Below, one piece after another: positions 48,763 through 52,056 of a DNA stretch of 64,000 bases. Under the pieces are notes generated by a model. It searched no databases. It worked only from the letters and a program-made list of their open reading frames with translations, and was not told where the DNA came from. The translations under genes were made by a program, and so were the position numbers. Position 1 is the first letter of the stretch; the number at the start of each line of letters is the position of its first letter. Source of the stretch: Gordonia tangerina (GTDB lineage: Bacteria > Actinomycetota > Actinomycetes > Mycobacteriales > Mycobacteriaceae); the NCBI RefSeq assembly GCF_021556435.1, contig NZ_JAKGCU010000002.1, positions 124,001 through 188,000 of the forward strand. The letters run 5' to 3'.

Positions 48763-48946
48763 CCGCCTCGTGGAGGTGATCGGGGCGGATCGCGACGTGG
48801 CCTGACCAGGGCTTTGCCACATGGTGCGAGGCGATGTCGTTACAATGGTCCACACCGGTCATCGCGCACCGAGAAATCAAGCCCCTGATCCGCGTCGGCG
48901 TGCGCCGCCGTCGGTGGATACACGAGTCAGTTCCGAAAGGTTGTAC

Positions 48947-50377
48947 GTGGCAGCCACCAAGACCCGACAGGCCGACGTCGACGAATCGACAGACGCGACT
49001 ACCGCCACGGAGCCTGCGCCGGCCCAACGGACCGCCAAGAAAGCCGCCAAGAAGGCCGCCGCCCGCAAGGCACCCGCGAAGAAGGCAGCAAAGAAGGCGG
49101 CGAGCAAACGCGCCCCGAAGAAGGGCACCAAGCCTGCCGATTCCGACGGCGAGTCGACCGAAGATCTCGACGACAGCGGCACCATCGACGACATCGATGG
49201 TCCCGATGCCGAACTCGGCGACGATGTCGAGATCGACGACATCGAGGTCGACGAGGACGACGAGGCCTCCGACGACGACTCCTCCGAGGATGACGAGGAC
49301 GACGACACGGCCGACGCCGAGACCGCACCGGCGGCGACGAAGGCCACCGGCACCAAGGCCAAAGCGGACAGCAAGGAGAAGACCTCCGGCGACTTCGTCT
49401 GGGACGAAGAAGAATCCGAGGCACTCCGCCAGGCCCGCAAGGACGCCGAACTCACCGCGTCGGCCGATTCCGTCCGCGCCTATCTGAAGCAGATCGGCAA
49501 GGTCGCCCTGCTCAACGCCGAGGAGGAGGTCGAACTCGCCAAGCGCATCGAAGCCGGCCTGTTCGCAACCGAGCGGCTGCGCCGGATCGTCGATTCCGGC
49601 GAGAAGATCAGCACCGCCGCCAAACGCGACCTGAACTGGATCTCCCGCGACGGAAACCGTGCCAAGAACCACCTGCTCGAGGCAAACCTCCGGCTCGTGG
49701 TGTCGCTGGCCAAGCGCTACACCGGTCGCGGTATGGCGTTCCTGGATCTCATCCAAGAGGGCAACCTCGGTCTGATCCGCGCGGTGGAGAAGTTCGACTA
49801 CACCAAGGGCTACAAGTTCTCCACCTACGCGACGTGGTGGATCCGGCAGGCGATCACCCGTGCGATGGCCGACCAGGCACGCACCATCCGCATCCCGGTG
49901 CACATGGTGGAGGTCATCAACAAGTTGGGCCGGATCCAGCGCGAACTGCTCCAGGATCTCGGCCGCGAGCCCACCCCGGAGGAGCTCGCCAAGGAGATGG
50001 ACATCACGCCGGAGAAGGTGCTGGAGATCCAGCAGTACGCGCGTGAACCGATCTCACTGGACCAGACCATCGGCGACGAGGGCGACAGCCAACTCGGTGA
50101 CTTCATCGAGGACTCCGAGGCCGTGGTCGCGGTGGACGCCGTGAGTTTCACCCTGCTGCAAGACCAGCTGCAGTCGGTGCTGGAGACGCTGTCCGAACGC
50201 GAGGCCGGTGTGGTCCGGCTACGCTTCGGTCTCACCGACGGCCAGCCACGGACCCTCGACGAGATCGGTCAGGTCTACGGCGTGACGCGCGAACGTATCC
50301 GCCAGATCGAGTCGAAGACGATGTCGAAGTTGCGGCACCCGTCGCGGTCGCAGGTGCTGCGCGACTACCTGGACTGA
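48947..50377 (+). CDS. sigA: principal RNA polymerase sigma factor SigA
   Basis: SigA directs RNA polymerase to housekeeping promoters. The 476-aa protein begins [14 protein letters not shown] from GTG 48947, 6 bases after GAAAGG, matching the mycobacterial start. Residues 25-65 are Lys/Ala-rich and 65-140 strongly acidic. Region 1.2 follows ([19 protein letters not shown]), then region 2 with [23 protein letters not shown] and [14 protein letters not shown], region 3 ([16 protein letters not shown]) and region 4 HTH ([20 protein letters not shown]) ending LRDYLD. The stop overlaps the convergent DUF952 gene by 13 bases. Confidence 0.98.
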
Positions 50378-50781
50378 TCTCGGCTCGATGGGTCCGAATC
50401 CGACCCGGAGATCTTCGTCACGAACGCGGGCGGTGCGAAAGCACCGTCCGCGTTCGCCTTATATGGGTGTACGTCGATGACGGCATCGACCGGCAATGCG
50501 CCGTAGAGATGGGGGAACCGCATCCCCTCAGGATCAGACGGCACTCCCGGTTCCCAGACGACCGGCGCCGACAGCCGGTCCGGGTCGATGACGAGCAGCA
50601 CGAGGTCGTCGCGTCCGGCATACAGCCGGTTGGCCGGGAGATGGACCTGAGCGGGCCCAGAGAGGTGGATGAACCCGACTTCGGTGAGCGACGGCGGTTC
50701 GTGAGATCCGGCCCGGCGCGACTGCTCCCATTCGACGCGGGCACACAGGTGCAGCAGCACAGGCTCGGAGTCGACATTCAT
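50365..50781 (-). CDS. DUF952 family protein
   Basis: The 138-aa cytosolic protein shows the DUF952 pattern: [56 protein letters not shown] and the [21 protein letters not shown] block. Members are small alpha/beta proteins of unknown function. Its last codons overlap the end of sigA on the opposite strand, and a 16-bp-stem hairpin (50421-50456) that probably terminates sigA lies inside its coding region, encoding part of [11 protein letters not shown]. It has no operon partner. Confidence 0.88.
50421..50456 (+). terminator. strong hairpin 43 bases after sigA, inside convergent gene
   Basis: CGAACGCGGGCGGTGC pairs with GCACCGTCCGCGTTCG (16 bp, one G-T wobble on the plus transcript) around a GAAA tetraloop, followed by CCTTATAT. 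A GNRA-type loop on so long a stem is a very stable structure. It sits where a sigA terminator is expected but within the DUF952 reading frame. Confidence 0.75.
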
Positions 50782-50881
50782 AGGTCGTTGCTTAAACCAT
50801 CCGGCAGCCGGCTTGTCAAGAGTTGTGCGCGGTCGGATTCTCCCGACCGTGCCAAATGCACGGATCGGGTCGGTCTGCCCT

Positions 50882-50887
50882 TACGAT
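50882..50887 (+). promoter_or_regulatory. -10 box for leaderless leader-peptide transcript
   Basis: TACGAT lies 7 bases before ATG 50895, so transcription would begin at or next to the A of the start codon. No clear -35 is seen, as is common for actinobacterial SigA promoters. This supports a leaderless mRNA for the leader peptide and tauE. Confidence 0.65.
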
Positions 50888-50894
50888 TCTCCGC

Positions 50895-50972
50895 ATGCTG
50901 GTGACCCGACGAGCCATCGACCTCCTGAGGGTGGCGTCGATGCTGTGTCTGCGGCGCCGCGGCCCGATCTGA
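50895..50972 (+). CDS. 25-aa Cys-containing regulatory leader peptide
   Basis: ATG CTG GTG ACC ... encodes a 25-residue peptide containing VTRRAIDLLRVASMLCLRRR. It closely matches the consensus of actinobacterial leader peptides found upstream of sulphur-assimilation genes (pattern T-S/R-R-R-x-x-D-L-x-R-V-A-S-x-L-C). It ends in TGA 110 bases before tauE. A -10 box 7 bases upstream implies a leaderless mRNA. By analogy with mycobacterial Cys-responsive leaderless uORFs, the ribosome would pause at the Cys codon (50946-50948) when charged tRNA-Cys is scarce and alter folding downstream. The peptide itself is not expected to have a stable role. Confidence 0.82.
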   Translation: MLVTRRAIDLLRVASMLCLRRRGPI

Positions 50973-51004
50973 TCGAGATGCCGCGGCGCGTACCCCATCG
51001 CGCC
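50954..51004 (+). promoter_or_regulatory. candidate Cys-responsive attenuator with competing hairpins
   Basis: The 3' coding part of the leader (gcgccgcggc, 50954-50963) is perfectly complementary to gccgcggcgc (50980-50989). The same 3' arm (ggcgcg, 50985-50990) can instead pair with cgcgcc (50999-51004). The two structures exclude each other, and the first arm starts only 5 bases after the Cys codon, within the footprint of a ribosome stalled there. No U tract follows, so control could be Rho-dependent or act on access to tauE translation. Confidence 0.6.
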
Positions 51005-51081
51005 AGCGTCTGCCAGGGTTTCCCGGCTACCGGTGCGTGTCCGCACAACCCCGAGTCATTTGAACCGAAAGTTCTCATCGC

Positions 51082-52056
51082 ATGCGCACCATCGTCCTGA
51101 TCGGCCTGGTCGGTCTCGCCGCTCAACTCGTCGACGGCAGCCTCGGCATGGCCTACGGCGTCACCACCACCACCCTGTTGTTGGCCATCGGGGCCAACCC
51201 CGCCGCCGCGTCGGCCACGGTCCACCTGGCCGAGATCGGGACCACACTCGTGTCCGGGGTATCGCATTGGCGCTTCGGCAACGTCGACTGGAAGGTCGTC
51301 CGACGCATCGCCCTGCCCGGCGCGATCGGCGCGTTTCTCGGCGCGACCGTGTTGTCGAATCTCTCCACCGAGGCTGCGGCTCCGCTGATGGCCATCATCC
51401 TGTTGCTGCTGGGTCTCTACATTCTGACCCGGTTCACCTTCCAGGGCATCCCGCGTCAGCATCTCGGCAAGCCGCTGCGCAAGCGGTTCCTGTCCCCGCT
51501 GGGACTCGTCGCCGGTTTCGTCGATGCCACCGGTGGCGGCGGTTGGGGGCCCGTCGGCACCCCGGCCATACTCGCCAGCGGGCGACTCGAACCGCGCAAG
51601 GTCATCGGTTCCATCGACACCAGCGAGTTCATCATCGCGGTGGCCGCGAGTCTGGGCTTCCTGGTGAGTCTGGGCTCGCAAGGGATCAACTTCGCGTGGG
51701 TCGGCGCGATCCTGGTCGGTGGGATCATCGCTGCCCCGATCGCGGCCTGGCTGGTCCGGCACATCCCGCCGCGGCTGCTCGGTGCCTCGGTCGGTGGTCT
51801 GATCGTGCTCACCAACACCCGCAGCCTGCTGCGCAGCGATCTCGTCGACGTCCCGTCGGCCGCACAGACGGGCATCTACCTCACGATCATCGTGCTGTGG
51901 GTGGCCGCCTTCGCGTACTCGCTGCGGGAGTACCTGCGTGACCGCGAGAACGAGTCGTCGGACGCCGTCAGTCGGCTGCGTGCCGAGCAGGCCGAGGCTG
52001 TGGAGCACGAACCCGATGAGGCCGCTGAGCCGACCGGTACCCCGGCCGTGGGCTGA
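51082..52056 (+). CDS. TauE/SafE-family sulfite/organosulfonate exporter
   Basis: The 324-aa protein has eight hydrophobic helices in two repeats typical of TauE/SafE (DUF81): IVLIGLVGLAAQLVDGSLGMAYG at the start, GANPAAASATVHLAEIGTTLVSGVSHW, and in the second half VAGFVDATGGGGWGPVGTPAIL, then VIGSIDTSEFIIAVAASLGFL. A 45-residue acidic cytoplasmic tail follows. The family exports sulfite, sulfoacetate and related anions. The upstream Cys leader peptide makes a sulfur role likely here. ATG 51082 is used. No other sulfur genes are nearby. Confidence 0.9.
   Translation: MRTIVLIGLVGLAAQLVDGSLGMAYGVTTTTLLLAIGANPAAASATVHLAEIGTTLVSGVSHWRFGNVDWKVVRRIALPGAIGAFLGATVLSNLSTEAAAPLMAIILLLLGLYILTRFTFQGIPRQHLGKPLRKRFLSPLGLVAGFVDATGGGGWGPVGTPAILASGRLEPRKVIGSIDTSEFIIAVAASLGFLVSLGSQGINFAWVGAILVGGIIAAPIAAWLVRHIPPRLLGASVGGLIVLTNTRSLLRSDLVDVPSAAQTGIYLTIIVLWVAAFAYSLREYLRDRENESSDAVSRLRAEQAEAVEHEPDEAAEPTGTPAVG

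Follow-up and report, generated by a model that had tools for sequence, protein, structure and literature searches.

Cysteine-rich leaderless upstream open reading frames have been noted in mycobacteria (PMC4633059; this paper and those cited below are drawn on in excerpt), and cysteine-responsive attenuation has been described for the cysteine genes of Mycobacterium smegmatis (Canestrari et al. 2020). Two such Cys-rich leaderless leaders of mycobacteria, Ms5788A and Ms4527A, are associated with cysA2 and nirA, and the NCBIfam family NF042934 (cis_reg_atten, 'putative leader peptide') comprises leaders that precede sulfur genes. Here we describe a leader in front of tauE, a gene for a TSUP-family transporter, in Gordonia: judged by its sequence it looks like the known kind of actinobacterial cysteine-sensing leader, and a sulfur or cysteine attenuator at tauE is well supported.

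The 64-kb window (the whole stretch of DNA analysed) belongs to a 5.29-Mb genome, in which the leader element lies between a DUF952 gene and tauE. The parts of the locus, in window coordinates, are:

48821..50377, + strand: principal sigma factor gene of sigA type, upstream (NF004560, 859 bits)
50365..50781, - strand: DUF952 gene between sigA and the leader (PF06108, 1.4e-29)
50882..50887, + strand: candidate -10 box TACGAT of a leaderless promoter (position re-measured; box type conserved in Gordonia)
50895..50972, + strand: leader open reading frame of 25 codons, peptide MLVTRRAIDLLRVASMLCLRRRGPI, TGA stop at 50970-50972 (NF042934 match, conserved core)
50946..50949, + strand: core Cys codon TGT and the following C, proposed control codon and context (codon conservation)
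50954..50989, + strand: stem 1, 50954-50963 with 50980-50989, spanning the leader stop codon (perfect 10-bp pairing)
50985..51004, + strand: stem 2, 50985-50990 with 50999-51004, poorly conserved (perfect 6-bp pairing)
50973..51081, + strand: spacer from the leader stop to tauE, candidate Rho-accessible stretch (C 0.37, G 0.28)
51067..51071, + strand: GAAAG, candidate weak Shine-Dalgarno sequence for tauE (conservation by eye)
51082..52056, + strand: tauE, TSUP-family transporter gene related to CysZ (PF01925, 8.1e-43; tree)

Seven bases separate the TACGAT box from the ATG at 50895, the TGT at 50946-50948 is the single Cys codon of the frame, and a helicase-type gene lies on the opposite strand on the far side of tauE from sigA and the DUF952 gene. 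On re-measurement, the 25-codon leaderless frame, the TACGAT box and both stems were all found where the sequence-only reading, an earlier interpretation of this stretch, had placed them. Within 50750-51150 a strict sigma-70 consensus promoter was sought and not found, and an Rfam search of the same interval gave 0 matches up to E 1, on which ground a riboswitch or other known RNA was rejected as the identity of the element.

The leader peptide matches NF042934 with 29.1 bits against a cut-off of 27 (a six-frame search of the genome scores it at 26.5, just under that cut-off), and the sulfur gene that follows, as in that family, encodes a TauE/TSUP protein (PF01925) that is kin of CysZ. Among 296 genomes sampled from the class, 216 gave a leader match at E 0.001, and the genome of the window carries two further leaders, MNDVTSPGVWLAARRHIDLKRVCSAFCRP before sirA (NIR_SIR) and MQLRREFMLTRRRAIDFCRVADCCCR before a rhodanese-type gene (the latter gene named by eye). 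ABC sulfate transporter genes (G000:C33:191083-200490) are located ~7-9 kb from the sirA leader of this genome.

Conservation in front of orthologous genes was the test that the sequence-only reading had set itself, and the peptide is indeed conserved there. TauE is present at E 1e-60 or better in 23 of 59 Gordonia genomes, and a leader with the core [VI]DL[LV]R[VT]ASM[LM]C lies upstream of tauE in 22 of the 23 loci, the sole exception being L031, whose protein is 68% identical and groups with other genera in the tree. In 21 of these 22 leaders a TANNNT box stands 6-7 nt before an in-frame ATG or GTG (L014 is the exception), and the position of the start codon has shifted among Gordonia species. 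Synonymous codon changes occur at D, L, R, A, S and elsewhere, that is, the codons of the conserved peptide drift except for the Met ATG and the TGT; the latter is found at the core Cys in 22/22, with C as the next base in 21. This conservation before Gordonia tauE puts both the peptide and the leaderless start beyond chance, and the claim of a leaderless Cys leader stands in that the family precedes sulfur genes and is conserved before orthologous tauE genes.

Beyond Gordonia, the leader profile was run on the 800 nt upstream of 80 tauE relatives (the best matches from named genomes), 27 of which have a leader: Gordonia 8/8, Geodermatophilaceae 18/19 and others 1/53, the single locus among the latter being that of Actinomadura alba. 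A control on the opposite strand gave two weak matches over 122 scanned loci. One of the two, ILHLVSRLHIDLARHASAGCPR in L165 (Plantactinospora; within 800 nt of tauE), looks like a genuine leader that may belong to another gene. In Geodermatophilaceae a box resembling TAGACAT or TAGGAAT is seen by eye 6-8 nt before the GTG or ATG. Among same-family genomes outside Gordonia, 39 of 40 tauE loci (40 of the 123 genomes with tauE) are without the leader, a regular expression applied to 700 nt having found none and the profile, applied to 1000 nt, only L092. In L092, L182 and L183 a leader-like frame, LTRRRCVDFMRS.S.CCRP, lies about 610 nt upstream of tauE and points to an opposite-strand gene, named by eye as that of an Rrf2-like regulator, which is located between the two; L085 likewise has, adjoining tauE, a gene that Pfam matches to Rrf2. 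In a TauE tree of 91 rows, made by a quick method and with long branches, the leader loci of Gordonia fall into one clade (support 97) and Geodermatophilaceae into another (92), and leader-bearing tauE occupies three separate places (22 Gordonia rows, 15 Geodermatophilaceae rows and Actinomadura alba). Repeated recruitment and repeated loss would both fit this distribution.

The leaders sampled from the class for comparison come from 149 loci in 57 genera that were found by protein-profile matches, largely the top-scoring ones, and a script located the downstream gene for 140 of 145 leaders; the resulting target counts, which cover the first 25 of 38 Pfam families, are thus no unbiased census. 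These 140 genes include rhodanese (30), sulfite reductase (26), DUF4395 (18), luciferase-like monooxygenase (9), solute-binding family 5 (8), NMT1-like (5), TauD (4), sulfatase (4), Cys/Met metabolism (3) and TauE (1) genes, and some that are not obviously sulfur genes, for example Trans_reg_C (6) and SDF symporter (3). Most of the larger target classes in the sample belong to sulfur acquisition or assimilation, and TauE is a target that is rare overall and steady in two lineages.

A first signature of the family lies in its core Cys codon. In 145 leaders this codon is TGT 139 times and TGC 6 times, and the base after it is C in 127, T in 14, A in 3 and G in 1, i.e. a pyrimidine in 141/145; three of the 145 rows repeat the same place, and without repeats the figures are TGT 136/142 and, for the next base, C 125, T 13, A 3 and G 1. 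Since related leaders are not independent, the very small p-values calculated for these counts are exaggerated, and the count by genus, TGT in all sampled leaders of 53 of 57 genera, is the fairer figure. Background codons in the same loci begin with C in 28.7%, T in 12.2%, A in 17.5% and G in 41.6%; background Cys codons there are 106 TGT and 675 TGC, non-core Cys codons of the same leaders are 112 TGC and 54 TGT, and TGT accounts for 24 of the 87 Cys codons in the window's own genes. Of the 19 tauE leaders from Geodermatophilaceae and Actinomadura, 18 carry TGT at the core, and TGC is the codon of every one of the 25 non-core Cys counted. The core T opposes the local bias: in the 17 codons that precede the core, third positions are G or C in 2053 of 2465 cases. 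As leaders were scored on amino acids, the search itself did not predetermine the codon result. The residue after the core Cys is R in 70, P in 34, L in 17, C in 9, Q in 4 and H in 2, with few others; most of the following codons share only their first base, which points to the nucleotide and not to the amino acid. Four of the 149 rows gave no codon: L196 fell below the score limit of 12 although its core is TGT, and in L053, L287 and L308 the core peptide is kept with no Cys at the core, these three being possibly decayed or of a different kind. Three leaders of one genus (g17; L043, L049 and L195) have TGC at the core and supply half of the six exceptions.

A wobble-read UGU followed by a pyrimidine would, in view of work on codon context, be a weak context for the decoding of Cys, and one such codon could hence serve as a usable sensor. 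The UGU signature looks stronger than the stems discussed below, and it fits a hard-to-decode control codon. Selective charging of an isoacceptor was set aside as the cause of the UGU, given that bacteria, to our knowledge, decode both UGU and UGC with one tRNA-Cys. Isoacceptor families as such are treated in PMC1183508. Pairing of UGUC with a downstream GACA was also rejected: GACA is not among the words enriched in 144 leaders, which are mainly stop codons and ribosome sites.

The second signature lies in the spacer between leader and gene, where C exceeds G in 155 of 156 cases (22/22 for tauE and 133/134 for the others, the 134 resting on script-called start codons and still containing repeats). 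In control upstream intergenic stretches C exceeds G in 13/24 (window) and 58/109 (family loci). The bias begins at the leader stop: in Gordonia the fractions of C and G change from 0.23 and 0.34 over the final ten leader bases to 0.48 and 0.28 in the ten after the stop, and in the other leaders from 0.31 and 0.31 before the stop to 0.43 and 0.30 after it. The spacers of 55-148 nt are unlike in length and sequence and have the bias of C over G in common; in the window itself the skew towards C is one of the weakest among the 22 tauE spacers. An intrinsic terminator with a U run before tauE was searched for within 50750-51150 and not found, and the locus thus departs over this interval from the classical terminator-type attenuator. 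C-rich, G-poor RNA is a hallmark of Rho loading sites. The spacer signature, which likewise looks stronger than the stems, fits Rho-type attenuation, a mechanism that we infer: a leaderless leader, a control codon near the stop, a spacer rich in C and no intrinsic terminator together suggest exposure to Rho at the stop.

The competing hairpins of the sequence-only reading fared less well. Both stems are present and, as they overlap at 50985-50989, mutually exclusive, and the left arm of stem 1 starts 5 nt past the Cys codon; their support is weak, however, and stem 2 is intact in only 2 of 22 Gordonia tauE loci (L001 and L010; nearly so in L013, all by eye). Stem 1 is seen by eye in 8 of the 22, namely those with the longer leaders. 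A perfect 10-bp stem was reached in 6 of 500 shuffles of 50895-51081, and 17 perfect 10-bp stems occur across the 64-kb window. The overall fold of 50895-51100 is not more stable than its shuffles (z -0.28; 75 of 200 equal or stabler). In the alignment of stem 1, 93.9% of the cells are paired and one pair has changed on both sides, and its covariation score was reached by 148 of 500 shuffles, there being too little variation to decide. The GAAAG close upstream of tauE is found by eye in 21 of 22 loci (GAGAG in L028), stem 2 leaves it untouched, and the folds of the 22 Gordonia loci, inspected by eye, show no common pairing that covers it. The stems are weak evidence and insufficient on their own to make the case; blocking of stem 1 may add to the switch in the eight loci with long leaders.

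The tauE product matches PF01925 with 147.2 bits against a gathering score of 32.6. In four loci of group g3 (L095, L097, L099 and L101), which we take on synteny to be Corynebacterium, the sole TauE match of the genome lies near a cysN-type gene (4/4), no more than about 0.75 kb or a single short gene away; a cysD-type gene is next in the three loci scanned for it, and two loci have an intervening CbiX-domain gene (cysY type). PF01925 takes its name from sulfite export, yet the family is mixed in function (PMC5840216). The cluster of Corynebacterium glutamicum is cysIXHDNYZ, and its CysZ is required for growth on sulfate and sulfite: a cysZ deletion abolished growth on sulfate below 5 mM, with recovery at higher sulfate, and the authors propose CysZ as a sulfate permease (PMC1266029). 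Sulfite export, which the sequence-only reading had assigned to the target, finds no support in these data, 'sulfite exporter' being the Pfam name only and a Corynebacterium-type relative lying by cysN/cysD-type genes.

The distribution of other sulfate transporters among 59 Gordonia genomes is pertinent here. Five (G015, G021, G039, G047 and G055) have no match to the ABC sulfate-binding protein, G028 and G034 have matches below the cut-off, and CysT is over the cut-off in the other 54. All five ABC-negative genomes are among the 23 that carry tauE, and no genome lacks both (Fisher p 0.007, kinship ignored); the C. glutamicum control genome is likewise without a match to the ABC protein. The five group in the TauE tree along with one ABC-positive genome, and there may therefore have been a single loss or few. 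All nine genomes checked, the five included, encode SulP proteins, so that tauE need not be the sole sulfate route. In the same quick tree with its long branches, the window's TauE falls outside the clade of the corynebacterial cys-operon proteins, and Gordonia tauE, lying near sigA, is in no cys operon and does not share the operon place of CysZ; neighbours scanned in five other same-family tauE loci included no cys genes. A search of solved transporter structures by sequence gave no relevant match. In L083 and L086 a second TauE-family gene is found close to the first. On this comparison of sequences and gene neighbourhoods, import of sulfate or a related anion under cysteine shortage is likelier than sulfite export and is not proven.

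The best explanation, to which we assign a probability of roughly 0.6, is that the leader is a cis-acting cysteine attenuator of the sulfur transporter gene tauE. Transcription would begin at the leader ATG at 50895, and a 70S ribosome would translate the 25 codons. With ample cysteine, the ribosome would pass the UGU, stop at 50970-50972 and leave; its departure would set free the C-rich spacer and allow stem 1 to form, and with the spacer free most transcripts would end early, most likely through Rho, or tauE would be poorly translated. Under a shortage of charged tRNA-Cys, the ribosome would instead pause on the UGU, its front edge covering the left arm of stem 1 and lying near the stop codon. 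Such a pause would block stem 1 and shield the start of the spacer, and tauE would be expressed; the transporter would then be most useful as a CysZ-type importer that takes up sulfate or a similar anion. The leader's single Cys codon counts against this explanation, since theory ties a low proportion of control codons to lower sensitivity of an attenuator (PMC1183508).

Several other readings share part of this evidence. One keeps the leader and its cysteine sensing and has tauE export sulfite or another sulfur anion, with detoxification tuned to sulfur flux. The Pfam name of PF01925 and the TauE of Cupriavidus necator, described as a sulfite exporter in the title of a cited reference, favour it, and a low-cysteine cell that raises sulfate reduction might need a safety valve for sulfite; yet the prevalence of sulfur acquisition and assimilation among the larger target classes, the relative beside cysN/cysD-type genes and the need of C. 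glutamicum for CysZ during growth on sulfate or sulfite point the other way, and export during cysteine shortage would waste sulfur, which makes this reading distinctly unlikely. Somewhat unlikely, in our estimate, is translation attenuation in the style of M. smegmatis, by which the paused ribosome would refold the RNA and free the tauE ribosome site with no early termination. It has been reported for the mycobacterial relatives (Canestrari et al. 2020), and both the GAAAG in 21/22 loci and the start of stem 1 only 5 nt past the Cys codon would suit it. However, no common pairing over GAAAG was seen by eye in the 22 folds, stem 2 is neither conserved nor placed over that site, and the spacers vary in length and sequence yet share the C over G bias.

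The conserved peptide could also act in itself, as a nascent-peptide arrest sensor: its body, lodged in the exit tunnel, and the UGU-pyrimidine would set the pause, and charging would be only part of the signal. In 25 leaders chosen to span different targets, L2, R5, D9, R12 and C18 are invariant and L10 is nearly so; the body is conserved despite codon drift, and the many leaders with a single Cys are in keeping with such a sensor. That body could, however, have been kept for reasons of RNA or shared ancestry, and the known relatives are explained, in the excerpts consulted, by contiguous Cys codons, so that we consider arrest by the peptide unlikely. A chance reading frame with chance stems in a GC-rich gap would agree with a fold no stabler than its shuffles, but the conservation seen in 22 Gordonia loci and in further families already refutes it and leaves it a practically negligible probability. 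The cysteine attenuator of tauE may be extended more tentatively, with the odds leaning against the full chain: the leader family would sense cysteine via one hard-to-decode UGU-pyrimidine, kept in a constant position behind a conserved body and immediately ahead of the leader stop, the pausing ribosome would shield a C-rich stretch for Rho loading that starts at this stop, and in Gordonia and Geodermatophilaceae the switch would have come to govern a TSUP importer of sulfate type. The UGU would be hard to decode since it is read by wobble in GC-rich genomes that prefer UGC.

For a gene that bears the misleading label 'sulfite exporter', the analysis predicts a sulfate importer under cysteine control, which can be put to the test. 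The wide family of Cys leaders gains two checkable signatures, the UGU-pyrimidine and the C-rich spacer that begins at the leader stop, which bear on sensing by a single Cys codon and on termination without intrinsic terminators.

When compared with the described systems, the leader of the window has the same LV.R...DL.RV.S..C core before a sulfur gene as the NF042934 leaders, from which it differs by its single Cys and by tauE being a rare target (1/140). With Ms5788A and Ms4527A it shares the leaderless arrangement, the core and a Cys near the stop; for a leaderless transcript like theirs the sequence arrangement would fit, and it is kept in 21 of 22 Gordonia loci; counterparts of the two occur in the window's genome before sirA and the rhodanese-type gene. 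Their polycysteine run is absent from the window leader with its one Cys codon, which scores 18.0 and 19.1 bits with the two profiles, far under the cut-off of 45. Like the candidate cys leaders of Mycobacterium, P. acnes and B. longum, it is a leader peptide without an intrinsic terminator, and for those candidates the excerpted paper suggests Rho as a weak prediction (PMC1262725); those leaders differ in their runs of Cys codons and their other targets, and polyY motifs are described there as not conserved. The uORFC-8-2 before cysS in Rhodobacterales is a Cys-codon frame likewise thought to attenuate, but it has tandem Cys codons with UGC dominant and an intrinsic terminator (PMC8632094), whereas here UGU dominates and such a terminator was not found. 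As to the target, CysZ of C. glutamicum (Cg3112, described in excerpt as a likely high-affinity sulfate permease) is a DUF81/TSUP membrane protein like the window's TauE, and the cysD-cysN-cysY-cysZ layout of that species is matched by L095 and L099; CysZ differs from Gordonia TauE in its operon place, and the Corynebacterium-type proteins form a separate clade. Neither the UGU-pyrimidine nor the C-rich spacer signature was found stated in the excerpts of the open-access literature, a scope that excludes Canestrari et al. 2020. The kind of leader is already known; what this locus adds to it, within the limits of that literature, is tauE as a target and the two signatures.
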